NCBI GenBank assembly: GCA_021201235.1
Contig: JAJQFI010000016.1
Coordinates: 62,001-126,000, forward strand
Length of the DNA stretch: 64,000 nt
Origin: Oscillospiraceae bacterium
GTDB lineage: Bacteria > Bacillota > Clostridia > Oscillospirales > Ruminococcaceae
Reading direction: 5' to 3'
Shown here: positions 13,595 to 36,996 of the stretch, piece by piece
Layout of the letters: each line of letters begins with the position of its first letter
Position numbering within the stretch: position 1 is the stretch's first letter
The notes under the pieces: model-generated
Told to the model about the DNA's origin: nothing
Seen by the model: only the letters and a program-made list of their open reading frames with translations
Database searches by the model: none
Position numbers and translations under genes: made by a program

Positions 13595-16213
13595 TCAAGA
13601 CAAATCGCTTATCGACTGCTCAATCTTTGAGAGCTTGTCCTTGGCACGCTCGAGCTTTTCGCGCTCAGATTCAACAAGCTGTGCGGGAGCCTTCTTCAAG
13701 AAGCCTTCGTTATTAAGCTTGCCGGAGATGATTGCGATATCCTTCTCGGCGGATGCCTTCTCGCGATTAAGTCTTGCAAGCTCCTTGTCCTTGTCGATAA
13801 TCTCACTGAGCGGGATGAAGAGTCTTGCCTGATCGGTAACGGCGGTTACACAGCCCTCTTTTTCTACCTTCTCCGTTATCTCGACGGATGAAGCATAGGC
13901 AAGGCGTTCAAAGAACATTATACCCTTTTCGAATATCTCAGCGTGTGATGTTTCGATGAAAAGCTCGGCTTTTTTCGACGGAGGTACGTTCATACCGCTA
14001 CGCAGGTTTCTTATAGCCTTGATAGCCTCGATAATCTTCTCGAAGTCGTATTCTTCCTCGGGATAGGAAAGAGCTTCCTCGTATACGGGATAGCTTTCGA
14101 GCATAAGAGGAGTTCCGCCCTTCAAGTTCTGCCAGATTTCTTCGGTTATGAACGGCATGAACGGGTGAAGAAGCTTAAGGATTCTTATCATAGCCCAGAC
14201 GAGAACCTTCTGTGCGGATTCCGCGGTTTCGCCACCGGCTGAAATTCTCGGCTTGGTGAGCTCGATATACCAGTCGCAGAATACATCCCAGATGAAGTCG
14301 TAGAGCTTCGAAGCAGCGACACCGAGCTCGAACTTGTCGATGTTCTCCCCTACTTCTTTTGCAAGGGTATTGAGCTTTGAAACAACCCACTTGTCCTCGA
14401 GTGTGAGGGTTTCGGGAAGCTCTCCCGTTATCTCCATGTCCTCGGGCAGGTTCATCATTATATATCTTGTTGCGTTCCAGAGCTTATTTGCAAAGTTACG
14501 GGCGGCTTTGACCTTTTCGTCGGAATATCTCATATCGTTTCCGGGTGAATTGCCGGAGGCGAGCATGAATCTCAGTGCATCAGCACCGTACTGGTCGATA
14601 ATCTCGAGCGGGTCGATGCCGTTGCCGAGAGACTTCGACATCTTTCTGCCCTGCGAATCTCTTACGAGACCGTGGATGAAGACAGTGTCAAACGGCTTCT
14701 CGTGCATATGCTCCATACCGGCAACAATCATTCTAGAAACCCAGAAGGTTATGATATCATAGCCGGTAACCATTGTTGATGTGGGATAGAAGTACTTGAG
14801 GTCTTCCGTTTCATCAGGCCAGCCGAGAGTTGAGAACGGCCAGAGCGCAGAGCTGAACCATGTGTCGAGTGTGTCGGGGTCCTGACGCATCGGCTTGCCG
14901 CAGTGCGGGCAAACGACTGAATCTTCCTTCGTGACTATCATCTCGCCGCAATCGTCGCAATAGAATGCGGGGATTCTATGACCCCACCAGAGCTGACGGG
15001 AGATGCACCAGTCGCGAATGTCCTCCATCCAGTTGAAGTAATTCTTCTCGAATCTTTCGGGAACGAACTTGATGTCTCCATTCTTGACGACTTCGATTGC
15101 GGGCTTTGCAAGGTCCGCCATCTTGACGAACCACTGAAGCGATACTCTCGGCTCGATTGTGGTTCCGCAACGATAGCAGGTGCCGACATTGTGCTCGTGT
15201 TCCTCGACGGAAACGAGGTATCCTCCGGCTTCGAGGTCCTCAACGATTGCCTTTCTTGCCTCGAATCTGTCCATACCGGCGTACTTCGGATAATCATCGA
15301 CAATCTTTGCGTCGTCAGTCATTACGTTTATAACGGGCAGATTATGACGCTGTCCGACTTCGAAGTCGTTCGGGTCGTGAGCAGGTGTAATCTTAACAAC
15401 ACCGGTACCGAATTCCATATCGACATAGGAGTCGGCAACTACGGGGATGACTCTGCCAACAAGAGGAAGTGTTACAGTCTTTCCGACATAGTCCTTATAT
15501 CTTTCGTCCTTCGGATTTACTGCAACTGCAGTATCACCAAGGAGGGTTTCGGGTCTTGTGGTGGCAAGCTCGAACCAACCGGAACCGTCGGTGAGCGGAT
15601 ATCTTAAATGCCAGAAGTGTCCTGCCTGATCCTCATATTCAACCTCTGCATTGGAAATAGAGGTCATGCAGTGAGGACACCAGTTGATGATTCTCTCGCC
15701 TCTGTAGATGAGACCTTTTTCGTAGTATTTTACGAATACTTCTTTTACTGCCTTTGAACAGCCTTCATCGAGGGTGAATCTCTCGCGGGACCAGTCGCAG
15801 GAGGAACCTAACTTCTTCAACTGCTCGATGATTCTTCCGCCGTACTTGTCTTTCCATGCCCAGGCACGTTCGAGGAAGCCCTCTCTGCCGAGGTCGTCCT
15901 TGGTCAAGCCCTCTTTGCGCATGGACTCGACTATCTTAGCCTCGGTAGCAATCGAAGCATGGTCGGTTCCGGGAACCCAGAGCGTGGCATAGCCGGACAT
16001 TCTCTTGTATCTTACGAGAATATCCTGCAAAGTATTGTCAAGTGCATGTCCCATATGAAGCTGACCGGTGATGTTCGGCGGCGGGATAACGATGGTATAG
16101 TGTTCCTTATCGGGGTCTGCGTGAGCCTTGAAGCAGTCGTTATCAAGCCAATACTGATAAATCTTGTCTTCGACCTGCTTTGGCTCATAGAGCTTGGACA
16201 TTTCCTTTTTCAT
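13595..16213 (-). CDS. valS: Valine-tRNA ligase ValRS
   Basis: This class I aminoacyl-tRNA synthetase of 872 residues charges tRNA-Val and edits threonine. The HIGH motif is PPNITGQLHMGHALD, the KMSKS loop is GRKMSKSLGNGIDP, and a zinc-type cluster (CDDC, CPHC) lies between. The C-terminal coiled-coil arm ends the protein. The true start is the ATG at 16213 (MKKEMSKLYEP) with GGAAAGG upstream. The open frame that continues to 16720 runs through the T-box leader and is not coding. Control is by the valine T-box immediately upstream. Confidence 0.97.
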   Translation of the reverse strand: MKKEMSKLYEPKQVEDKIYQYWLDNDCFKAHADPDKEHYTIVIPPPNITGQLHMGHALDNTLQDILVRYKRMSGYATLWVPGTDHASIATEAKIVESMRKEGLTKDDLGREGFLERAWAWKDKYGGRIIEQLKKLGSSCDWSRERFTLDEGCSKAVKEVFVKYYEKGLIYRGERIINWCPHCMTSISNAEVEYEDQAGHFWHLRYPLTDGSGWFELATTRPETLLGDTAVAVNPKDERYKDYVGKTVTLPLVGRVIPVVADSYVDMEFGTGVVKITPAHDPNDFEVGQRHNLPVINVMTDDAKIVDDYPKYAGMDRFEARKAIVEDLEAGGYLVSVEEHEHNVGTCYRCGTTIEPRVSLQWFVKMADLAKPAIEVVKNGDIKFVPERFEKNYFNWMEDIRDWCISRQLWWGHRIPAFYCDDCGEMIVTKEDSVVCPHCGKPMRQDPDTLDTWFSSALWPFSTLGWPDETEDLKYFYPTSTMVTGYDIITFWVSRMIVAGMEHMHEKPFDTVFIHGLVRDSQGRKMSKSLGNGIDPLEIIDQYGADALRFMLASGNSPGNDMRYSDEKVKAARNFANKLWNATRYIMMNLPEDMEITGELPETLTLEDKWVVSKLNTLAKEVGENIDKFELGVAASKLYDFIWDVFCDWYIELTKPRISAGGETAESAQKVLVWAMIRILKLLHPFMPFITEEIWQNLKGGTPLMLESYPVYEEALSYPEEEYDFEKIIEAIKAIRNLRSGMNVPPSKKAELFIETSHAEIFEKGIMFFERLAYASSVEITEKVEKEGCVTAVTDQARLFIPLSEIIDKDKELARLNREKASAEKDIAIISGKLNNEGFLKKAPAQLVESEREKLERAKDKLSKIEQSISDLS

Positions 16214-16239
16214 TTTGGATGAACCTTTCCTTATAAAAT

Positions 16240-16492
16240 TCCGCGAAGTAAAAAATCGCCCCAAGAAATTCTTGAGACGAGATAGCCCGCGGTACCACTC
16301 AAATTGCAGAAAATAAAGCTTTCTGCCTCTTAATGCGGATAACGTTCGCTTACGGACGGGTTCTACTCGGGTCTTCCCTTTCTTCCCGTCGGCTCGGAAG
16401 CCACCGGCTGAGGCTTTCCCCGACAGCTCGCACCAACCGCTGTCTCTCTTTGGAAGAAAATTACCTTGCCGCTCTTCGTCAACGCCATTTCT
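16240..16492 (-). ncRNA. T-box leader (tRNA-Val sensing) of valS
   Basis: On the minus strand the leader contains a stem I apical region with GGUUGGUGCGAG, then a candidate specifier GUA (16364-16366, in GAGUAGAACCCG). The conserved T-box sequence GAGUGGUACCGCGGG (16286-16300) comes next, then a terminator. GUA is a valine codon, which matches the downstream valS. Uncharged tRNA-Val would stabilise the antiterminator and allow readthrough. The specifier assignment is by analogy to other T-boxes. Confidence 0.9.
16250..16280 (-). terminator. T-box terminator of valS leader
   Basis: Minus strand: TCGTCTCAAGAA/TTCTTGGGGCGA stem followed by TTTTTT. It is mutually exclusive with the antiterminator that uses the T-box sequence. 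Confidence 0.85.
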
Positions 16493-16498
16493 TTCTGT

Positions 16499-16527
16499 AT
16501 GATAACATAATCGCAGAAGATTGTCAA
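16499..16527 (-). promoter_or_regulatory. Sigma-A promoter of the valS T-box leader
   Basis: Minus strand: TTGACA (16522-16527), 17-bp spacer, TATCAT (16499-16504). Transcription would start near 16492. Confidence 0.8.
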
Positions 16528-16572
16528 GCATAAAAATGGCTGACAGGTGTTCAAACCCATCAGCCGGAAAAA

Positions 16573-17169
16573 TTACACTGTTTTTTCGCCTATATTTACT
16601 ATCCGCACTATGACGGGGCTCAGGATTACGTTGAAGAGAAGCTCGAAAAGGAAGTTGCCTCCTGCAAGACCCAGGAACATGTACGCAACAGCGTTCTGAT
16701 ATCCCAATGCCGATGCCCATTCAGCTACGGTATCATAGAAGAAGAGGAAGCAACCGATAAGGAAGATTCCGGTGTTGACAACCGGACAAGCGACTGCCGC
16801 CGCGACGGTTGCAACGTATTTGCTTCCCTTAAACTTGAGCTTGTTCACAAGACTGAACACAAGTCCAGCGAAGAGTCCGGCACATGTTCCCTTAAGAACA
16901 CAAATAAATATTGTTCCCGGAACATTTACAGTCAAAAATGCAGAAGCATCTCCTGAAATGAGAACCACTACACCGAACACAAAGCCAAGCCAAGCCCCGG
17001 ACGCTGGTCCACAAAGTGCTGCTCCGACCACTATCGGGATAAGCACAAGTGAGATTGAGAAGACGCCAAATCTTATGAATGAGCCAAGAAGCTGTAAAAC
17101 TACAACTATGGCGGTCAGCATTCCGAGGATTGTGAGCTGACGGATTTTTGCGGAATTTGTTTTTTGCAT
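16573..17169 (-). CDS. ECF transporter S component, probably pantothenate (PanT-like)
   Basis: This 198-residue integral membrane protein has about six hydrophobic spans and no soluble domain, typical of ECF substrate-binding components. The N-terminal segment KIRQLTILGMLTAIVVVLQ matches the conserved first helix used to dock the shared EcfT. It has GGAGTAGATAAT before the ATG. It follows coaX on the same strand with a 76-bp gap, so pantothenate is a reasonable substrate guess. The ECF family is clear from its architecture, while the substrate is inferred only from the neighbour. EcfA/EcfT would be encoded elsewhere. Confidence 0.85.
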   Translation of the reverse strand: MQKTNSAKIRQLTILGMLTAIVVVLQLLGSFIRFGVFSISLVLIPIVVGAALCGPASGAWLGFVFGVVVLISGDASAFLTVNVPGTIFICVLKGTCAGLFAGLVFSLVNKLKFKGSKYVATVAAAVACPVVNTGIFLIGCFLFFYDTVAEWASALGYQNAVAYMFLGLAGGNFLFELLFNVILSPVIVRIVNIGEKTV

Positions 17170-20855: not shown

Positions 20856-20897
20856 AATCAAAGCACAGTGTTCTGAATGCAATGAACATTCAAAAGC

Positions 20898-20990
20898 TAT
20901 ACGCCCTACGTCGGCATTATCCGAATCAGGTTATGGGTCGGAGCGAAACGCGCTCCCTCTCAGCCTGCCCTTGCAAGCTCCCCTGTTTTA
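20898..20990 (-). ncRNA. TPP (THI element) riboswitch
   Basis: The minus strand reads GGGGAGC, then GGCUGAGAGGG, GACCCAUAACCUGAU and CGGAUAAUGCCGACGUAGGG, which are the conserved P1/P2/P4 elements of the TPP aptamer. It precedes a terminator and thiT-thiN. Ligand-bound RNA would terminate transcription. Confidence 0.97.
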
Positions 20991-20998
20991 TTGATACG

Positions 20999-22125: not shown

Positions 22126-23233
22126 AAACAATAAAAACCAAAAGAATAATACAAGTATCAGCGGCAATACAAGAAAAGTGGCGTTTCCGACATTCGGCAA
22201 CTATAACCTGCCATTTAAGTACTTTATCGAACAGGCTATAGGTGCGGAATGCGTTCTGCCTGCCGCGCACATAAAAAAGACCGTTCACTTCGGTGAGCTT
22301 AACAGTCCCGACTTTGTCTGCACTCCTTTCAAGCATACTCTCGGAAGTATGATTGAGCTTCTGGAGCTCGGTGCGGATACCCTCGTCATGAGCGGCGGAC
22401 CTTGCAGGCTCGGCTTTTACGGAGAGCTTCAGAAGAAAATTTTAGAGGATATGGGCTATGAGTTCACGATGATCGACCTCGAATGGTACAAGGACTCAAA
22501 AAGAAGTGAATGGCTTAAGGTCATAAAATCAGTGAATCCCGACGTGAAGGTCCCTCAGCTTCTGCTTGAAGCAACAAACACCGTGAAGATGATAAAGTAC
22601 ATCGACGAAATCGAAGAGCTTTATCATGCAAACATGGGCTTTGAAACGAATGAAGGCGCATACGATAAAATTTATCGTGATTTTCTCTTCGATATGAGAA
22701 TGGCGGCTTCGGGAAACGACATCAAGAATGCCTACCGAAAAGCCAAGATGGCTATCGACGACGAGCCTCTAAACAAGCCGGATATGCCGCTGAGAGTAGG
22801 TATTGTCGGCGAGTATTACACCATCATGGATAAGTTCTCGAATCTTGATGTTGAGAATAAGCTCTGCCGGATGGGAATTGAAGTCCACAGACTGATGAAT
22901 TTCTCCAACTACAACCTCGGCGGAAGTGAGCAAAAGATGTTTCCTGCGGCGAAGAACTACATGAAGTTTCAGATGGGTCCGACAAGCGCGACCACCGTTG
23001 CCGCCGCCGAAAAGTACGCAAAACAGGGCTTTGACGGCTTGGTTCACGTCAAGTGCTTCGGATGCACTCCGGAGGTTGACGTTATGCCTCTTTTGCAGAA
23101 GCTCTCGCAGGACTATCACATCCCGGTTTTGTATCTGAGCTACGACACCCAGACCTCGGACACGGGTCTCGACACCCGTCTTGAGGCATTTTATGATATG
23201 ATTTCACTTAAGAAGAAGGTACTGAAAAATTGA
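22115..23233 (+). CDS. 2-hydroxyacyl-CoA dehydratase / double-cubane-like protein (half B)
   Basis: This 372-residue protein is related to the HgdB/DUF2229 group. Candidate cluster cysteines are in FVCTPFKHTLGSM, SGGPCRLGFYGE and KCFGCTPEVDVMP, patterns known from double-cubane cluster proteins and acyl-CoA dehydratase activases. A Lys/Asn-rich N-terminal stretch of about 20 residues precedes the domain. The C terminus (IPVLYLSYDTQ...GLDTRLEAFYDMI) closely parallels that of the preceding gene. Such proteins reduce recalcitrant small substrates using electrons delivered by an ATP-dependent activator, which is encoded next. The exact substrate is not deducible. Confidence 0.83.
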   Translation: MANKNNKNQKNNTSISGNTRKVAFPTFGNYNLPFKYFIEQAIGAECVLPAAHIKKTVHFGELNSPDFVCTPFKHTLGSMIELLELGADTLVMSGGPCRLGFYGELQKKILEDMGYEFTMIDLEWYKDSKRSEWLKVIKSVNPDVKVPQLLLEATNTVKMIKYIDEIEELYHANMGFETNEGAYDKIYRDFLFDMRMAASGNDIKNAYRKAKMAIDDEPLNKPDMPLRVGIVGEYYTIMDKFSNLDVENKLCRMGIEVHRLMNFSNYNLGGSEQKMFPAAKNYMKFQMGPTSATTVAAAEKYAKQGFDGLVHVKCFGCTPEVDVMPLLQKLSQDYHIPVLYLSYDTQTSDTGLDTRLEAFYDMISLKKKVLKN

Positions 23234-24198
23234 GTAAAGCTAAAGCATACATAGGAATCGACATCGGTTCCATATCAACAAAAGGCGTAATCATAGACGA
23301 ATCGAAAAACATAATCGCATCGTCCTACTTATGGACGGAAGGAAACCCGGTCGGAGCGGTAAGAAAGCTCCTGGGAGTTCTTGAAGAGCAGTTCGACGAC
23401 GAGAAGTACACGATAGTATCGTCCGGCACAACAGGAAGCGCAAGAAGGCTTATCGGCGCAATAATAGGCGCCGGAGTCGTCAAGAACGAGATTACAGCTC
23501 ACGCCGTAGGCACCACGACCATCCACCCTGATGTAAGAACGATATTCGAAATCGGCGGTCAGGATTCAAAGATAATCCTCGTCGAGAACGGCATCGCCGT
23601 CGACTATGCGATGAATACCCTCTGTGCCGCAGGAACCGGAGCTTTCCTCTCGAGTCAAGCGCACAGACTGGGAGTCGAGGTTGAAGAGTTCAGCGAGATT
23701 GCTCTTAAATCCAAGCACCCGACCCCTATCGCCGCAAGATGCACGGTATTTGCTGAGTCAGACCTTGTACACAAGATTCAGATGGGTCACTCGAGAGAGG
23801 ACATTATCGCCGGTCTTTGCCGTGCGGTAGCTTCGAACTATCTCAACAACGTTGCAAAGGGCAAGAAGATTATCTCCCCCATCGTCTTCCAGGGCGGCGT
23901 CAGCAAGAATCAGGGCGTTGTCAAGGCGTTTTCGGACGAGCTCGGAGTGCCGGTTACGGTTGATGAAAACGGTCACCTTATGGGCGCATACGGTTCGGCA
24001 ATCCTTGCGATGGAATCAAGAAAAGAAGCGCCGTTTTCGTTCGATGTCGGCGAGATGGACTTCGTCACAAAGGAAGTCACCTGCGGAAAGTGCTCGAACC
24101 ACTGCGAGATTATCTGTGTTTCAAGAGACGGTGTTCTTATCGACTCATGGGGCAACAGATGCAAAAAGGGCGAAATCAAGGCTCACGCAAAGAAATAA
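23230..24198 (+). CDS. ATP-dependent reductive activator (BcrAD/BadFG/HgdC family)
   Basis: This 322-residue ASKHA ATPase uses a [4Fe-4S] cluster and ATP to push low-potential electrons into the partner. Motifs: YIGIDIGSISTKGVI, the bridging-cluster Cys in NTLCAAGTGAFL and ARCTVFAESD, IFEIGGQDSK, and VFQGGVSKNQGV. The C-terminal ~40 residues add CGKCSNHC and a final Cys (DSWGNRCKKGE), possibly a second metal site, as seen in longer activases. It begins with TTG at 23230 overlapping the upstream TGA, indicating coupling. It completes a three-gene redox unit. Confidence 0.9.
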   Translation: MSKAKAYIGIDIGSISTKGVIIDESKNIIASSYLWTEGNPVGAVRKLLGVLEEQFDDEKYTIVSSGTTGSARRLIGAIIGAGVVKNEITAHAVGTTTIHPDVRTIFEIGGQDSKIILVENGIAVDYAMNTLCAAGTGAFLSSQAHRLGVEVEEFSEIALKSKHPTPIAARCTVFAESDLVHKIQMGHSREDIIAGLCRAVASNYLNNVAKGKKIISPIVFQGGVSKNQGVVKAFSDELGVPVTVDENGHLMGAYGSAILAMESRKEAPFSFDVGEMDFVTKEVTCGKCSNHCEIICVSRDGVLIDSWGNRCKKGEIKAHAKK

Positions 24199-25623: not shown

Positions 25624-25656
25624 AAAATCGGCTGAGAAAACTCAGCCGATTTTTTA
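25624..25656. terminator. Bidirectional terminator
   Basis: A perfect 11-bp stem AATCGGCTGAG/CTCAGCCGATT with an AAAA loop is flanked by T runs on both strands, between the convergent carboxypeptidase and GH94 genes. Confidence 0.9.
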
Positions 25657-27384
25657 TACGTCTTTTCCGTCAAGATAAATTTGCGCATCGACAAGTGACT
25701 TCCCTCTTGCGAGCTTGCCGCCTTTTAACTTTAAGCCCAATATATCTTCAATGATCGCACGATAATACCACGCCGCAGAGCCAGTATAGATTGACCATCC
25801 TCCCCGGGAATAGCAATTCTTGTTTGAGTAGACATCGCCGCAGATATAGTAAGGCTCGGTTTTGTACCTCTCATATCCCCCGCTTTCGGAACGCAGAATC
25901 GGGTTGAGAGCTCTTAAGATTTCAAAGCCTTCGTCGGTGAGCCCTGCCTCAATGCAAGCCATGCCGAGCCAGATTGCCGCATGGGTATACTGCCCGCCGT
26001 TTTCGCGGATTCCGTCGGGATAGCTTGCTATATAGCCGACCTCGGCTCTTGCATCGTCGTTGAATGCAGGATAGAAAAGCTTGATAACGCCGTTTTCGGT
26101 GTCGGCAAGCCTTGAATATGCTTCCGATAGTGCGGACTTTGTAAACTCTTTGTCGGGTAGCTTTGCAAACTGTGCAAACGACTGTGAAAGGGAATCAAGC
26201 TTGCAGGAGACGGAGCTTTCGTCTCCCAGAACAGTACCCGAATCGGAATAGGCTCTCAGGTACCACTTCTCGCCCTTGCCGCTTGAGGATATTGCCGATT
26301 CAAGTGCTTTTACTCTTGCTAAAAGAGTTTCTCTGTAGTCTGATTTGCAAAATGCTGAAAATCTCTTAAGAACAAGCACATAAAACTCACTGAGCCAGAC
26401 AGATTCACCGATTCCATCCCCGCCAAGATTCGAAAAGCCGTCGTTCCAGTCTCCGGTGCCGATGAGAAGAAGTCCATGCTTACCGGTTCTCGAGCCGACA
26501 TATTCGATAGCACGAACGCAATGGTCGAAAATGCTCTCCCGAAGAGAAGTCTTATAGACCTCGCCGCATCTGTCCCGTTCGCTATCCGACAGAGTAATCC
26601 CGGCTGAGTATGCAACTTTTACGTCGAGTATAGAAGCATCGCCGGTCTTGTCGACATACTCGCATACTGCATAAGCAAGCCACAGAGGGTCATCGGAGAT
26701 TCTTGTACGGATTCCGGTGGTCTTTTTGAGTGGGAGCTCATGCCACCAGTGCATTACGTCGCCTTCTATGAACTGTGCTCCTGCCGCCCGAATGATATGA
26801 GTACGACATTCGTGAGGGTTCTCAATGATAATCCCGACAGCATCCTGTAGTTGATCACGGAAGCCGTAGGCTCCCGACGACTGATAGAAGCCGGTTCGAG
26901 CCCACATTCTTGCGTGAAGCGCCTGATAGCGAAGCCAGTCGTCCGATAGAATCCGAAGCCCGCTCTCTTGGGACTTAACCAAAAGCTTATGCTCCCGGGT
27001 GTCTGTCTGCGTTTCGAAGTATTCCGGCATCAGTACTGCGGCTTTTTTAGTGTGAGCATAGGACATATAGAAGTCGACGACGGTTTTGCCTTGAATATCA
27101 ACCGTTGCCGCCGCTATGGTGTCTTCACCGACGGCGATATTTGCCTGCCAATCGCCGCTTAAGAATGCTTTTCTGTCAGTCTGGAAGCGGCATTCAAGCG
27201 ACGATGTTATCGACATAAAGCCGTCAACAGGCGAAGCGCAATCAGAGACAAGAAGCGTATTGCCTTTCTTTTCGGGTTTCAATAAAGCAGATTTTGAACG
27301 GTCAAGACCGAGGCATGGTTCTGTGTAATAGGACAGTTCTGCCGGTTCATCCACGGAAATATTCACACGGATGCGTTTGCACAT
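25654..27384 (-). CDS. GH94 catalytic domain fragment (C-terminal part of interrupted glucan synthase)
   Basis: This open frame of 576 codons encodes the GH94 phosphorylase domain: TGFYQSSGAYGFRDQLQDA, FIEGDVMHWWHE, the catalytic Asp in TGDWNDGFSNLG, and TGSAAWYYRAI. It is in the same frame as the upstream 1658-codon segment, and the region 27385-27558 also translates without another stop as NIGERLVLHIGDEYFDI and onward. Only one TGA (27559-27561) separates the parts. The ATG at 27384 has AAAAAGG just 1 nt away, so an independent start is not convincing. I read it as the natural C-terminus of the interrupted gene. Confidence 0.85.
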   Translation of the reverse strand: MCKRIRVNISVDEPAELSYYTEPCLGLDRSKSALLKPEKKGNTLLVSDCASPVDGFMSITSSLECRFQTDRKAFLSGDWQANIAVGEDTIAAATVDIQGKTVVDFYMSYAHTKKAAVLMPEYFETQTDTREHKLLVKSQESGLRILSDDWLRYQALHARMWARTGFYQSSGAYGFRDQLQDAVGIIIENPHECRTHIIRAAGAQFIEGDVMHWWHELPLKKTTGIRTRISDDPLWLAYAVCEYVDKTGDASILDVKVAYSAGITLSDSERDRCGEVYKTSLRESIFDHCVRAIEYVGSRTGKHGLLLIGTGDWNDGFSNLGGDGIGESVWLSEFYVLVLKRFSAFCKSDYRETLLARVKALESAISSSGKGEKWYLRAYSDSGTVLGDESSVSCKLDSLSQSFAQFAKLPDKEFTKSALSEAYSRLADTENGVIKLFYPAFNDDARAEVGYIASYPDGIRENGGQYTHAAIWLGMACIEAGLTDEGFEILRALNPILRSESGGYERYKTEPYYICGDVYSNKNCYSRGGWSIYTGSAAWYYRAIIEDILGLKLKGGKLARGKSLVDAQIYLDGKDV

Positions 27385-27558
27385 GCCTTTTTCGGAAACA
27401 CTGACTGTGACGCTTCCGTGAAAATGCTTTTCCTCAAAGTGATATTCAGCGAGATAGGGAGCGAAGACAGCGACTGAGCCTCTGATTATATCGAAATATT
27501 CGTCGCCAATGTGCAGGACCAGGCGCTCACCAATATTGTCCCGGCTTGTATCGTTGTC

Positions 27559-30500
27559 TCACGGAGTGAGCCTAAGCTTACGGGAATTGTGGGCATAAGT
27601 GAAGCCGAGAGAGCCCTCCGAAAGAAGTGTTCCGAACTGCCTTGAGGACAAGACATGACACCAAGGCAGTGGTGGTCTCGAGTTTGTGACGTACTTACCC
27701 CGACAAAATCCGCCACAGGCGATTTCATCGTCTACAGGTTGTTTCTTGGGACTGACAGGCTTAATCTCAATTTGCGAGAACTGTGAAGCTGGGATATTTG
27801 CCTCTATTTCGCCGTGAGAAATGTGGCAGGCGTAGGCTTTCAGAAGAGTGATGAGCTCCTCGCGGACGGCTGAACGGTCGACGGGATAGATTCCGCCTTC
27901 GGAATATAAAAGCCCTTCACAGGAGAAGTCTCTTGCGGCTTTCACAAGCGCAGTGTAGTGCTCTCTTTCGTATCTGCCGGCGTCATCGAAGAGAACCGCC
28001 ATCTGCGCCTTGATCCCCGAAAGTCGCAAATCACGAAAAGCATGGATATAGACCGAGAGCTTGTCGGTATCGGATATATCGTCGAAGCAATATAGGATAA
28101 GCGGCAAATCGGTTGAAATTGAAAGCTCCCAAAGGGAACTGAGTGGCAGGGTGTTTTCCCGAAGCGCTTCCCTCCTCTGCTGTGAATTGCAAGGCGTAAA
28201 GAGCACATTCCCGGCAAGAATTTCGAGAAGCCTTGAGGAAGCTGAGCTGTAGCCGGTGCATGTTTCCGCTTGCCTTACCCTTAGCTCGCTTACCGTGTTT
28301 ATAAGCTCGTCGGGGCTGTCGGCGGCGAGGATGAACATATTGAGAGTTGCTTCTCCCGACGGTGGAAGCTTCACGGGAGTTTTTAAGAATATGCAAGGGT
28401 CGGGTTCGGAAATAAGACTGCTTGAGACTTTATCCGCTCTGTCAAGAAAACCGCCTGCACCATCGGGACGAGATAACACGTCTTCCCTTTCGAACGAAAC
28501 CAAGCCCAAAGAGCTGTCTGTAAATCCAACAGCCATATAGGGCTTATCCGAACCGTCGCAATCGCTTCTTGTGGCGGTGATAATATCGAGGTTCGGGTCT
28601 ACATCAAGCCGAAGGAACATCTTTTCGTATGCCGGATGAGCCCGCTCAGCTTCATCCGAAAGTAACGACGGCTCAATATAAGAGCATAAAAATGCCTCTT
28701 TTTCGGCATCGGAATCATTCTTTATTGTGAAGGTCCTCAGCTCGCACGGCAATGTTTTGTGAAGGGTAACTCTCATCTCGGCGGAGGCATTACGGTACAC
28801 TGCAAAGCCGTCGCCGAATTCGCAGGTGTCGCCGGTGAAGTATGCTTTTTTATCGCCCGAGATAATTCCGAAGAATGCGCCCTTGGGGCGACTTACTTGG
28901 TCATGCGTTGCGGAGTAGACATTTCTGCCTCTGTACAAAGCGATTGATATTCCGCTGTCGGTGAGTGCGAGAGTATATTCACCATTTCGTAAGAGCTTTA
29001 CTCTTGGATTGAATGGCGATATAGCGGCAAAGTATTCGGAGGTAGGAGCCGGCGGCTTCTCTGCTTTCCGGTGCTTCGGCTTGAGGACTGCATCCTCGTA
29101 GGTATTTCGCTCGAGCCTTACACGTTCATCAAGAAGCTCGCTTGCGCCCATGACGTTCTTATCGCGCATGAACCTGCGACGGAAGACACCGTCTTCGAGA
29201 ACGTTGACAGCCGAGATTATGCTCATCCCGACGTGGTGAGACATGTAGCTCTTCACCACTCCATAGCCTTCGGGCGTGTCGGGCGCAGTAAAATCAAGTG
29301 CTTCATAGAAACCGTAGCGTGAATACATGCCGTATTTTTTAAGGCGGCTTAAGTTCTCCATGCCGTTATCTCCGGAGTAGCCGAGCGAAAGATATGAGGA
29401 ATAGGGCGAGACTACGAAATCCTGCTCCAGTCCCCTTCTCAAGCCTGTCTTCGGCACTCCATGCGCCATATAGCGGTATGACAGACTGCTGTCAAAGCTG
29501 TAATAGCCACTTTCGGAAATGCCATAGGGTCTGCCGAAGGCTTTTGCATATCTCTTCTGACACCAGAGAGCATAGCGAAGACTTTCGTTAAGAAGCGAAC
29601 CCTCGGGGCTCTCAAGTAACATCTCAGGCATGAAGTATTCGAACATGGTGCCGCTATAGGAAGCTGTTCCGGCATAGAATTCACAGCTCAAGGTTGTTCT
29701 TGACAGGCTATACCAGTGGCTTTTTGGAACCTGATGCGAGGCTATAGCATAGAAGGAGCCGAGGCGGGCTTCACTCATGAGGTAATCGTAACTTGAATTG
29801 TCAGGCTCGCCCGTTTCGGGATTGATGCCTATCGCCATCAGCCCACGGACATCGTCAAAGAAAACTGACAGGTCGCAATCGGCGATTATATTCTCAATTC
29901 TTGATATGGTTTCAGCGAGTTCGGGACAACGGGCTGTGTACTCCTTCAAGCCCTCTTTCAGAGCGACCAGAGAGCAGATAAAATTGCCGCTGTCGACGCT
30001 TGAAACATAAGGATTCGGACATAGCTTGAGGGTTTTGGTGTCGTACCAGTTGTAGAGATTGCCCTTGTATTTCTCCATTCTATCAATCGAGTCAAGAGTG
30101 CCACTTATGCGCAAATTCATAACTTCGAAGCTGATAAGGCGGCGGTCGCATGCCGCCAGTACAGACAGAAGATACATGCCGATATTGGTGGGAGAAGTTC
30201 TGTGGGCAATCCGATATACCGGTGAAAACTGGACGTTGTCGGGCGGCAGGCAATTCTCCGATTCGGTGACGTAGTCGGAGAAAAAGCCCCACATGTCAGC
30301 TATTTGTGCCGAAAGCTCACGACGATTGCGCTCTGACAAACTCTTATTCGATATTCCGGTTCTCCGCGTGCCGATTGCAAGAAGCACCGGCAGGAATGCA
30401 AATACAATTCCAAAAAATCTCACGACATAGCTCGGTGAAAATACAAGTACGGTTCCCGATATCCACGAAATAAAGAAGAATGAAAAGCTGTCTGAAGACT

Positions 30501-32535
30501 TACTGTCATACGACGATGACACCGTCCACTCCAAAAGCTTGCGCTTTGTTATCATCCTCAGAATTGCCGTGAGCATTGCCCGTGCTGATTTAAGGGCGAG
30601 CGTTGGAAGAAGGACCAAAGAATAGACAAACGAAGAGAGATTCAATGCCGCTCCGCTTACCATTGCGGAATAGAAGCGGCGTGAGCCGGTGCCCTGATTC
30701 AGAAGCGTTCCGATAAGCCCCAGAAGCTGTGGAAACAGATACATTATGACTGCCGCAAGTGCGATTTTACCGGAGGCTTCGGGATATAAAAATAGTCCAA
30801 GAAGCAGAGTTGCAAAGACATCAATCGGCAAAAATGAACGGCGAAGATTTTCCCAGAGCTTGAGCTTCGAAAGCATGTCAAACTTGTGAGAAAATATGAA
30901 TCTGAGATTCTGGATATCTCCTCTTATCCAACGGTCGAGGCGCTTGAAATAGCTGACGGGATTTTTCGGAAAGCCTTCAGTAAAGATTACGTCGTGGGCA
31001 TAAGCAGTATTCATCAGCTCACCTTCGAGGATGTCGTGCGAGAGAACTCTCTCATGCGGAAGGAAGCTCGTGCACTCCAAGAGGGACAATATCCTGAGCA
31101 GTCCTTTGCCGCAGAAGGTTCCTCTGCCGTAAACATCCTGCCAGAAATCCATGCTCTCAAGGTCATAGCCGGATATTGAGCCTATGCCGCCCATGGCTCT
31201 TGAGAAGCCGGTTGCGAGTGAATCGCCAAGTCGGGTCACCATCCGGGGAGCGATTATGCCGTACCTACCGTTTGCCGGGTGCAATGCTATCGACAGGAGC
31301 TCCGCCACGGAATCCATATATGGCTCGGTGTCGCTGTCGGCACAGATGATATATTCCGTTCCGACAAGCTTCTCTGTACATCCGAACATACCGTAAAAAT
31401 CCTGCTCGCCTGATTTCATATAGCGAGCCAAATCCATTATCGCACCGCGTTTGCGCTCATAACCCATAAACTCGTCCTGAGCCTCGGAATAGATGCGTTT
31501 TCTTATTATGCAGGAGAAGATATCGCCGTTTTCACGATTGAGCCTGTCAATCATATCTTCAAGGCTTTCTGATATAGCTCTATCATCTCCTGTTACGAGA
31601 GTCTGAGATGAAGAGAAATCGGCAAGCAAGCATACGGAAATATTGGGTTGCGGGTTCGATGCGTGAAGCCTAATGAGCTTCCGATAAAGGCTGTCGGAGT
31701 AGTTGACGCCGTTGACAACCGCTGAGAGGACGATAGTGCAAGGCGTGCTTCTTACTTCTTCGGAATTTATATCAAGGCGAGGAAGACGGATTCTTGGCAC
31801 ATAGCGGATAAGAATATCGTTTACGACTGCCTTGACTGCGGCGTAGGCGGGACATATCAGAAACAGCGTTGTCCACGGCTCACCGATTCGTACAGCGAGT
31901 GCCATAGTGAACATGAAGGCGATTACAACTTCCAGAAATTCGACCGTCAGATTTGTGGCGATTCTCGATTTGGGGCATCTGCTTGGAAAAAGAACAGGCT
32001 TCGAAGCATAGATTTGCTCACGATATTGCTTTTTCGTTTTACGGTCGCACTTGGGATAATATTCGTCCCGGGATAGCTCTATTGCGACGGGATTGACCGT
32101 TTCGTTAATACGGTACTCATCAAGGGAGCTTAGCCCCGAGAGCATGGCGACAGCTTCGCGGATATTCTGCTCGGACTTTTCGAGAAGATGATATGTCAGC
32201 TCAAACCTGAGATTTTCTATATCGCAGGGGTTGACTGTGTTTTCGGACGCATAGCTACTGATCAGAAAGATTATCTCATCCGAAGACGGGATTTTTCCCG
32301 AAAAGTGAGATATCAGATATCCGGCAAGAGGAAGCCCATCGGTTATCTCTGCCTTCGGGTCACATCCAAGAAGATAGCCGGTGGCATCGTTCAGAATTCT
32401 ATAGTTATCTGCAAAGAAAATTTCGTCGTCGGTGTTGCAACCATCGAGGCAAAGGGTTTTATATCGCCGCTCCATGCGGGCACGCATACTTCTTATTTTT
32501 CCGAAATACTTGCCTATTCTTATAAGTTCGCTCAT
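27559..32535 (-). CDS. Cyclic beta-1,2-glucan synthase-like protein (GT84 plus glycoamylase-like), interrupted by in-frame TGA
   Basis: The 1658-residue segment contains N-terminal helical sequence, membrane spans, a GT84/GT2-type glycosyltransferase (CADSDTEPYMDSV, RGTFCGKGLL, then RLDRWIRGD near residues 380-560) and further spans. The glycoamylase-like PF10091 region (GYSGDNGMENLSRL, YEALDF, SHHVGMSI) and GT36 carbohydrate-binding modules follow. It ends ...AHNSRKLRLTP then TGA, where homologues continue LTPW. The next sense codons after TGA (DNDTSRD) continue the homology, so a Trp codon TGG has probably become TGA. Full length would be about 2293 residues, the usual NdvB-like architecture. 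A SD-like AAAGGCGAC precedes the ATG. Confidence 0.88.
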   Translation of the reverse strand: MSELIRIGKYFGKIRSMRARMERRYKTLCLDGCNTDDEIFFADNYRILNDATGYLLGCDPKAEITDGLPLAGYLISHFSGKIPSSDEIIFLISSYASENTVNPCDIENLRFELTYHLLEKSEQNIREAVAMLSGLSSLDEYRINETVNPVAIELSRDEYYPKCDRKTKKQYREQIYASKPVLFPSRCPKSRIATNLTVEFLEVVIAFMFTMALAVRIGEPWTTLFLICPAYAAVKAVVNDILIRYVPRIRLPRLDINSEEVRSTPCTIVLSAVVNGVNYSDSLYRKLIRLHASNPQPNISVCLLADFSSSQTLVTGDDRAISESLEDMIDRLNRENGDIFSCIIRKRIYSEAQDEFMGYERKRGAIMDLARYMKSGEQDFYGMFGCTEKLVGTEYIICADSDTEPYMDSVAELLSIALHPANGRYGIIAPRMVTRLGDSLATGFSRAMGGIGSISGYDLESMDFWQDVYGRGTFCGKGLLRILSLLECTSFLPHERVLSHDILEGELMNTAYAHDVIFTEGFPKNPVSYFKRLDRWIRGDIQNLRFIFSHKFDMLSKLKLWENLRRSFLPIDVFATLLLGLFLYPEASGKIALAAVIMYLFPQLLGLIGTLLNQGTGSRRFYSAMVSGAALNLSSFVYSLVLLPTLALKSARAMLTAILRMITKRKLLEWTVSSSYDSKSSDSFSFFFISWISGTVLVFSPSYVVRFFGIVFAFLPVLLAIGTRRTGISNKSLSERNRRELSAQIADMWGFFSDYVTESENCLPPDNVQFSPVYRIAHRTSPTNIGMYLLSVLAACDRRLISFEVMNLRISGTLDSIDRMEKYKGNLYNWYDTKTLKLCPNPYVSSVDSGNFICSLVALKEGLKEYTARCPELAETISRIENIIADCDLSVFFDDVRGLMAIGINPETGEPDNSSYDYLMSEARLGSFYAIASHQVPKSHWYSLSRTTLSCEFYAGTASYSGTMFEYFMPEMLLESPEGSLLNESLRYALWCQKRYAKAFGRPYGISESGYYSFDSSLSYRYMAHGVPKTGLRRGLEQDFVVSPYSSYLSLGYSGDNGMENLSRLKKYGMYSRYGFYEALDFTAPDTPEGYGVVKSYMSHHVGMSIISAVNVLEDGVFRRRFMRDKNVMGASELLDERVRLERNTYEDAVLKPKHRKAEKPPAPTSEYFAAISPFNPRVKLLRNGEYTLALTDSGISIALYRGRNVYSATHDQVSRPKGAFFGIISGDKKAYFTGDTCEFGDGFAVYRNASAEMRVTLHKTLPCELRTFTIKNDSDAEKEAFLCSYIEPSLLSDEAERAHPAYEKMFLRLDVDPNLDIITATRSDCDGSDKPYMAVGFTDSSLGLVSFEREDVLSRPDGAGGFLDRADKVSSSLISEPDPCIFLKTPVKLPPSGEATLNMFILAADSPDELINTVSELRVRQAETCTGYSSASSRLLEILAGNVLFTPCNSQQRREALRENTLPLSSLWELSISTDLPLILYCFDDISDTDKLSVYIHAFRDLRLSGIKAQMAVLFDDAGRYEREHYTALVKAARDFSCEGLLYSEGGIYPVDRSAVREELITLLKAYACHISHGEIEANIPASQFSQIEIKPVSPKKQPVDDEIACGGFCRGKYVTNSRPPLPWCHVLSSRQFGTLLSEGSLGFTYAHNSRKLRLTP

Positions 32536-34717: not shown

Positions 34718-35758
34718 TTAATCTTTCCAGGTATCTTCCGGAAGCGAATTAAGAAACGCCGTGAGTTCCTTTGCCATTTCTTCCTGCTCGGGGATTCGAG
34801 GGTGTCCGGGGGTAGCTTTACCGCAACGGGTATAGGTGAGGTGGTAAACACGGTTTTCCTCGCCGCCGAGGCGGTTCTTGATTTCTTCGAGGGCTTCATC
34901 CCAAGCCGGGTCGTGCATAAGGACGGTAAGGGCTAAAACTACGGTTGCATGATTGGTGTGAGAGCGGGTATCTTCGATGATTTCGATGTAGCGCTTCATC
35001 CACTTTTCGCGGTATTCGGGATCATGAATACAGCCGTTGTGCGGATGGTCGTCGTTCTGACCGACGGCGTAAACCATGACGTGCGGAACGAACTTCGAGA
35101 AATCCCAAGGAGTTCTCGGAGGCATCGAACAATATCTCGTCTTGTCATAGCAGGACTCAAGCCCGAGGGCAGGGTCTTCGAAATAACCGGTGCCGTTGAA
35201 GATGGCGATGCCGCCCTGAGCGGTGTTATAGACCTCCGCAGGAAGAAGACGCGCAGTCATCAGGGAGTAGCTATGCCATGAGTTATCGTAAACGCCGTCG
35301 TGATTCTCAGGATCGCACTGTCCCACATAATCTACAGCATCGACAACCGAGCCTGCGGTTACCGAATCGCCATAAAATTCTATGCGCTTTTTGGGCTTGG
35401 GAATCGGCTCTAAAATCTCGCCGTCATCGGGAAGGACGAAGCCCTTGAGTTTGAAATAGTGTCCCTCCATCCGCTTGTAGAGGACGCAGTCATGACGGGT
35501 GTTTTCGAGACCGGAAGCAAGCAGAACCTCCGCTTCGCCGTCGGAAATCGGGATGCACTTCTCTTCCCCGTCGATTACGAAGCCGATGAATCTGCCGTAC
35601 CAGTATTTCAGGTTCTCGATTACTGCCGAAATCTCCGTGCCCTTGAACGAAAAGCTAAGGTAGCTTCCGGTCCAGCAGAATACTGCGCTGTCCGGCTCCG
35701 AAAAGTCGATTCTGCCGGAATAATTGAACTTGTCGCCTATCGGGTTAATATGCTTCAT
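34718..35758 (-). CDS. CE2-type SGNH carbohydrate esterase
   Basis: This 346-residue protein has an N-terminal jelly-roll-like domain (about 1-115: FCWTGSYLSFSFKGTEI) and a C-terminal SGNH hydrolase domain. The catalytic Ser lies in FYGDSVTAG, Asn in VYAVGQND, and a late conserved GHPR sits near the family His position. CE2 enzymes remove acetyl groups from xylan or mannan oligosaccharides. It has no signal peptide and is translationally coupled to the GH5 gene by a 4-bp ATGA overlap. In known cellulosome proteins these two activities are fused, whereas here they are separate and in different compartments. Confidence 0.88.
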   Translation of the reverse strand: MKHINPIGDKFNYSGRIDFSEPDSAVFCWTGSYLSFSFKGTEISAVIENLKYWYGRFIGFVIDGEEKCIPISDGEAEVLLASGLENTRHDCVLYKRMEGHYFKLKGFVLPDDGEILEPIPKPKKRIEFYGDSVTAGSVVDAVDYVGQCDPENHDGVYDNSWHSYSLMTARLLPAEVYNTAQGGIAIFNGTGYFEDPALGLESCYDKTRYCSMPPRTPWDFSKFVPHVMVYAVGQNDDHPHNGCIHDPEYREKWMKRYIEIIEDTRSHTNHATVVLALTVLMHDPAWDEALEEIKNRLGGEENRVYHLTYTRCGKATPGHPRIPEQEEMAKELTAFLNSLPEDTWKD

Positions 35759-36933
35759 GCCGCTTCCTCCGATTCTGTGTATGAGCTCTCAACCGCACGG
35801 TCAAGGGTCTTGATTTCGTCAAATGCTTCGATTATTTCCATGTCATAGAATTCGCATGAGCTTCTGTCATAGTGTGTGCCGGTGGTGTCCCAGAGAACCG
35901 GGCACATGCCTCTTACATATGCAGCCTCGCAGACGGAAGTGATATAATTCCTTATCTGGTCGGGCATCTTGTTCGAAGTGGTGCAACCGTACTCGCCGAT
36001 TATAACGGGGATTCCGTTGGCGACGTAAGTATCATATAGCATGTCCATTATCGAGTCAAGATAAGCATAGTCGTCGTCTGTTCCCCATGTCGTTTCCGCC
36101 TTGCCCCACGAGGCGTCTTCTTCAATTACGGCGAAGGTCGACGGCGCATAGTAGTGAACCGAGATTGCATATCTGTTTGAAGGGTCATCGGGAAGAACGA
36201 AAAGCTCGTCGCATGTAAGCTCGGGGTCGGTGGCGTAGCCGGCTATCAGAAGATGCCGGAGCTCGTTATTGCCGCCCGAAGCTCTGACTATGTCTACAAA
36301 CGTCTGATTGATTTCACCCAAGAGTTCAAATGCCTCTGCTTTTCCTTCCGTTGTATTACCATAACGGTTCCAGATATCGTCCCAACAGCCTTCCTCGTTG
36401 AGGGATTCAAACATCAGATCAAGCGAGTAGTCCTTGAAAGCCTCCGAAAGCTGTGTCCAGATGCTTTCGTACTTCGCCATGCACTCGTCTTTGTCGGTCG
36501 AGAAGCCTTCCCACCAGTCGCCGTCCCAATGGATATTGACGATGCACTTCATTCCGGCATCGAGAACCCAGTCGACGATCTCCTGAACACGGGCTAAGTA
36601 CTCCTCATTGATAGTATAGTCCTCAGCCATCATATTTGACCACGCAACAGGGATACGGATAACGCCGAAGCCGAGGTCGGCATAGCCTTGGATGATTCTC
36701 TCGGTTATTTCGGGACTTCCCCAAGCCGTTTCGTATTCACGGACAGTCTCTTTCGTGAAGCCGGAGCACTCCATTGTGTTACCCAGATTGATGCCCAAGC
36801 CCATACTTAGGACGAAATCCATTGTGCTCATGACTTCGGCTGTCTCAGTCTCACTCGTACTTGAACAACCCGCAAACACAGTCAGCATCACAACCGCCGC
36901 TGTGAGAACGCATATAACTTTTTTGAATATCAC
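35755..36933 (-). CDS. GH5 endoglucanase-type lipoprotein
   Basis: This 392-residue protein starts with GTG at 36933 (GGAGG 8 nt upstream). A signal sequence ends in the lipobox VFAGC, so it is a lipoprotein facing outside. The GH5 domain (about 40-380) has GLGINLGNTME, RIPVAW, HWDGDWW, the acid/base Glu in FESLNEEG, SVHYYAP, and the nucleophile Glu in VIIGEYGCTT. The subfamily acts on beta-glucans, xyloglucan or mannans. The longer frame to 36996 is not supported. It is first in a GH5-CE2 operon with its own promoter. Confidence 0.92.
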   Translation of the reverse strand: MIFKKVICVLTAAVVMLTVFAGCSSTSETETAEVMSTMDFVLSMGLGINLGNTMECSGFTKETVREYETAWGSPEITERIIQGYADLGFGVIRIPVAWSNMMAEDYTINEEYLARVQEIVDWVLDAGMKCIVNIHWDGDWWEGFSTDKDECMAKYESIWTQLSEAFKDYSLDLMFESLNEEGCWDDIWNRYGNTTEGKAEAFELLGEINQTFVDIVRASGGNNELRHLLIAGYATDPELTCDELFVLPDDPSNRYAISVHYYAPSTFAVIEEDASWGKAETTWGTDDDYAYLDSIMDMLYDTYVANGIPVIIGEYGCTTSNKMPDQIRNYITSVCEAAYVRGMCPVLWDTTGTHYDRSSCEFYDMEIIEAFDEIKTLDRAVESSYTESEEAA

Positions 36934-36967
36934 CTGTAATACCTCCACATAGTATTTTGTACAATCA

Positions 36968-36996
36968 AGTATACAGCATAACACACTCTTTTTCAA
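36968..36996 (-). promoter_or_regulatory. Sigma-A promoter of the GH5-CE2 operon
   Basis: Minus strand: TTGAAA (36991-36996), 17-bp spacer, TATACT (36968-36973). Confidence 0.7.

Follow-up and report, generated by a model that had tools for sequence, protein, structure and literature searches.

An in-frame TGA at a conserved tryptophan position of a cyclic beta-1,2-glucan synthase-like gene in an Oscillospiraceae bacterium, probably a recent nonsense mutation

The divided synthase gene

The window analysed here is a 64-kb stretch of a 363-kb contig, taken from an assembly of 2.06 Mb in 32 contigs that belongs to an uncultured, probably gut-dwelling bacterium. On the minus strand of this window, a TGA (27559..27561, read from 27561 to 27559) is the sole stop between two open reading frames that lie in the same frame. 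The 5' part (27559..32535, minus strand) comprises 1658 codons and the TGA (4977 nt), the 3' part (25654..27558, minus strand) comprises 634 codons and a TAA, and the joined gene has 2293 codons when the TGA is counted as codon 1659. The original prediction had described a 4977-nt frame and a downstream GH94 domain in the same frame, parted by one TGA within a gene of 2293 codons, and the coordinates confirm this arrangement and the length. The first ATG, GTG or TTG past the TGA is at 27382..27384 (minus strand), 58 codons further downstream. For annotation, the consequence is that a single gene is recorded as two.

Judging from its sequence matches, the split gene would encode a large sugar-polymer synthase resembling cyclic beta-1,2-glucan synthase (CGS). 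Jointly, the two frames match full-length CGS, and the solved CGS 8rf9 is matched (E 4.7e-250) in three stretches that cover query residues 207-2282 in part and correspond to the glycosyltransferase, cyclization and GH94 parts. The intact relative L040 is homologous to 8rf9 across query residues 207-881 (the glycosyltransferase part) and is matched at 868-1141 (the cyclization domain) by 8wy1, a further sequence match named Glycosyltransferase 36. Within the window gene, the 5' part holds a GT84-like region, for which no Pfam match to a GT84 model was seen, a cyclization (glycoamylase-like) domain (Pfam PF10091, residues 919-1124), a first GH94-type supersandwich (Pfam, residues 1177-1401) and the start of a second. 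This second supersandwich, which occupies approximately residues 1622 to 1735 in L040, is split by the TGA, with its first 37 profile positions upstream and the remainder in the 3' part. Behind the TGA, the GH94 catalytic domain (PF17167), also present in intact relatives, extends over residues 190-608 of the 3' part. The motifs DSDTEP (at 400), RLDRWIRGD (at 532) and SESGYYSFD (at 1007), which we take to be catalytic, are kept in the 5' part, the first two being retained in all 11 members of the clade, and the GDWNDG motif is present in the 3' part. Whole-protein matches to the NCBIfam MdoH models were weak and far under the cut-offs. The three homologous stretches are common to the window gene and the known CGS proteins (PDB 8rf9 and 8rf0, and the cyclization domain of T. 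italicus CGS), although its approximately 2293 residues compare with about 2800 in Agrobacterium CGS. Relatives of the window gene hold all CGS parts in one frame, whereas the window frame is cut inside the second GH94-type supersandwich. Other carbohydrate-active genes lie nearby, namely a CE2-type esterase and a GH5 cellulase-type enzyme (34718-36996, minus strand).

Conservation, selection and decoding at the site

All 12 of the nearest homologues fetched (L031-L042) have TGG at the site, which bears out the view that a conserved Trp codon, TGG, has become TGA. In a wider set of 140 CGS-like loci, which includes duplicate places and counts the window's own genome twice, 136 cover the site: 126 carry TGG, four TTT, two TAT, one TTG and one a gap, while both TGA loci are the window's own genome. 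The seven non-Trp residues all come from distant loci, and no stop occupies the site in the other 134 covered loci, duplicates included. The original prediction had homologues continuing LTPW, and the orthologues are single open frames with Trp at this position. A search of the genus returned a CGS match in 31 of 31 genomes; 25 hold one open frame of at least 2191 residues, four are broken (the window's genome, G156, G157 and G149) and two are fragmented or truncated at contig ends (G163 and G174). By the CGS gene, the nearest named relatives are MAGs called Oscillospiraceae bacterium or Ruminococcus sp.; no further genome of the same species came to light, the nearest being 93.8% identical in this gene.

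Tip-specific substitutions on the window branch were polarised against the sisters L040, L031 and L032, with the stop itself left out. The window branch has 34 nonsynonymous and 96 synonymous changes, compared to 27/103, 38/114 and 51/104 in the three intact sisters (pooled, 116 to 321; Fisher P = 1.0 over the whole gene), and past the stop the counts are 8/31 for the window and 37/98 for the sisters together (P = 0.53). Another polarisation gave the same picture, with 41 to 93 for the window and 39 to 84 for L040. The counts show no relaxation of selection before or after the stop, which means that the stop arose recently or that the gene remains under selection in spite of it; the pattern would also fit a gene whose product is still made through leaky reading of UGA. 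We also modelled a gene that turned neutral when the stop arose, assuming a neutral ratio of 2.9: neutrality over 5% of the branch was borderline (P = 0.06) and over 8% was disfavoured (P = 0.01). Changes at otherwise invariant sites number 18 in the window gene (stop included) versus 11, 14 and 17 in L040, L031 and L032, and one of those in the window is a Glu to Lys change six codons upstream of the stop. We rejected a bias towards G-to-A mutation in the window lineage, since such changes make up 29/158 tip changes as against 30/162, 30/176 and 28/197 in the sisters.

TGA is an ordinary stop in this genome. The 39 other conserved genes of the window end in TGA (14), TAA (21) or TAG (4) and, where the C-termini of relatives align, in the same or another stop; they have 173 TGG codons among them, and no internal stop was accepted in any. 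RF2 is present, above its cut-off. The expectation that TGA is normally a stop here, and a whole-code change unlikely, was therefore upheld as far as it was tested. We found 42 tRNA matches in the genome, and none of the 41 tRNA genes that ARAGORN called at these places has a UGA-reading anticodon; the 42nd match is truncated by a contig start and has, by eye, the anticodon TGT. Since tRNA-Phe was not seen among the called genes, the tRNA set is incomplete and the absence of a suppressor tRNA is not absolute. The single tRNA-Trp found has the anticodon CCA, a 5-bp anticodon stem, A9 and G24 (in our own numbering), and is identical in eight other congeneric genomes. The assembly contains no match to SelA, and of the six weak matches to tRNA-Sec none exceeds the cut-off; each coincides with a gene that ARAGORN assigns to Ser or Gly. 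The TGA is thus almost certainly not explained by selenocysteine or by a change of the genetic code: the one point in favour of either is that the codon is UGA, and both are refuted as far as the assembly goes, a selenoprotein by the lack of SelA and tRNA-Sec in it, and a UGA-to-Trp code by the common TGA stops, the retained RF2 and the called tRNAs.

The small contig that bears the tRNA-Trp (L255; contig C5 of genome G000) also carries integrase-like and relaxase-like ORFs, named by eye. A separate tRNA-Trp 3' half lies on another contig (L254:1028-1071, contig C27), and G154, G155 and G156 have comparable 3' halves, as if the tRNA-Trp were used as a site by an integrative element.

Breaks of the gene in sister species

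The single stop that the original prediction had described in this gene stands, but that prediction had missed other breaks of the same gene in two sister species. Eight of ten sister species have single open frames, while the remaining two carry a frameshift elsewhere in the CGS gene, by loss of one base in L035 (G156) and by gain of one base in an A run in L037 (G157), near residues 1203 and 1067 of the L040 gene, respectively. The gene is therefore broken in three of 11 sister species, window included, at three different places. L037 has 62 nonsynonymous to 69 synonymous changes versus 43 to 69 in its sister, counts given here without a significance test.

We surveyed breaks in 40 genes across the 11 genomes (395 gene tests and 170,500 codons), with the CGS gene covered in all 11. 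The CGS gene accounts for 14.8% of the tested codons and has all three accepted breaks; the probability of this arising by chance is 0.003, or 0.022 when the window's break is not counted, both calculated post hoc. The 39 syntenic neighbours have no accepted break, once 31 of the 34 flagged gene-genome rows (the other three being CGS) had been dismissed by hand. Ten of the dismissed rows concern the leader of ORF 13595-16720, which overlaps a T-box, and the other 21 are stops within the first 32 codons, which we attribute to misassigned start codons; in one of them (G156, ORF 23212-24198) codon 313 of 328 is a stop as well. Breaks listed on other frames were judged to be mostly in antisense ORFs. 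The T-box leader (16270-16491, minus strand) falls within the 5' portion of ORF 13595-16720, so that this ORF must really start further downstream, and a TPP riboswitch is found at 20886-20994 (minus strand).

Outside the clade, a more distant congener (G149, whose assembly is 84% complete) has a CGS frameshift at L139:1675-1690. Without counting it, the contrast between the clade (3/11) and the rest (0/17) gives P = 0.05, whereas with it the rest of the genus stands at 1/18 (P = 0.14); with 28 family members added, the comparison is 3/11 to 1/46 (P = 0.02). Copies cut by contig ends were left out of these comparisons (G163 and G174 in the genus; G037, G070, G100 and G128 in the family). The clade contrast is thus weaker than it first looked, and breaks are not significantly more frequent in the clade than in the rest of the genus. 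Breaks at three places with the neighbours intact suggest that the polymer is expendable or at times selected against.

Explanations of the stop

Among the three explanations that had originally been offered for the TGA, a recent nonsense mutation is the best supported and programmed UGA readthrough gained no positive support. We consider it probable that the sampled strain carries an ordinary, recent nonsense mutation which turned the conserved Trp codon into TGA and which probably inactivates the enzyme. A single substitution would suffice; ribosomes would stop at the new TGA and release a protein of 1658 residues that retains the glucosyltransferase and cyclization parts but lacks most of the GH94 half, and the 3' part would not be usefully translated alone. 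One study of Agrobacterium Cgs (PMC10901819) reports that the glycosyltransferase and cyclization residues are required while the GH94 catalytic residue is not essential, and that the truncations Cgs1-1587 and Cgs1-1846 lose activity, from which its authors conclude that the C-terminal half acts as a scaffold; another (PMC10834661) reports that the GH94 domain controls chain length. The truncated window protein would probably have little or no activity, since the Agrobacterium enzyme depends on its C-terminal half for scaffolding, though not on the phosphorylase active site. Extrapolated from the alignment end, the window stop corresponds to about residue 2089 of the 8rf9 chain, and the Agrobacterium truncations end earlier; the window protein would keep more than these, yet lose most of the GH94 half. 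Loss of activity is what we infer, because the stop lies beyond the published truncations.

That the base is simply wrong in the assembly, with the real population carrying a sense codon, strikes us as unlikely. The nearest named relatives are MAGs, and an error would look just like this, a single altered base in a gene that is otherwise unrelaxed; however, the site lies about 89.6 kb inside the 363-kb contig, the concentration of all accepted breaks of the survey in the CGS gene (a post hoc observation) speaks against an error, and the gene is a single full-length copy. Other GH94 matches in the genome are only about 30% and 27% identical, so divergent that mixing of paralogues is improbable. 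A very unlikely reading is functional readthrough, in which near-cognate insertion of Trp at the UGA would yield a little full-length synthase. UGA is a leaky stop, and the substitution counts are unrelaxed in both parts of the gene. One survey (PMC7918605) moreover reports in-frame stops under purifying selection to be widespread in bacteria, and the window gene resembles those cases in its lone in-frame stop and unrelaxed counts; the filter described there, however, takes stops common to two or more species, whereas the window stop is in one genome only. Indeed, no relative has a stop at the site, and the 62 nt downstream showed no RNA structure that could stimulate readthrough (z +1.31, with 187 of 200 shuffles folding at least as well), so that neither a conserved stop nor a stimulating structure marks the site as programmed. 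The called tRNAs, in which no anticodon reads UGA, likewise speak against readthrough. A UGA at a Trp position is shared with the UGA decoding by variant tRNA-Trp described in PMC13092985, but unlike the variants linked to readthrough there, the tRNA-Trp of the window genome has an ordinary 5-bp anticodon stem, A9 and G24.

A broader version, to which we give only a slim chance, holds that the locus is repeatedly switched off in the clade: species-specific breaks (a stop codon, a one-base insertion in an A run, a one-base deletion) would be tolerated or favoured for a time, while low-level recoding or slippage retains some product and leaky UGA keeps a small dose of synthase in the window strain. 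Highly improbable, finally, is a pair of functional genes, one for a GT84/cyclization protein and one for an independent GH94 phosphorylase whose translation restarts after the TGA. The GH94 catalytic domain does lie wholly behind the first possible restart ATG, but such a restart would cut into the second supersandwich, already split by the TGA, there is by eye no good ribosome-binding site at the first restart codon, and no homologue was seen with a break at the same place. No promoter-like site was present in 27300-27700 and terminator signals were not found near the stop; restart of the 3' part looks poor.

If the stop is a recent nonsense mutation, it represents the probable loss of cyclic glucan in one strain, of a gene that may be prone to loss in this clade. 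A different kind of change is seen in a congener, L140 (G152), whose single open frame of 2191 residues has a GH94 half without the GDWNDG motif and the LTPW stretch, the only one without GDWNDG among 30 genus loci. By its sequence this GH94 half is probably a natural, catalytically dead phosphorylase half, and the loss of the motif within a long open frame fits the scaffold role proposed for the GH94 half in Agrobacterium.
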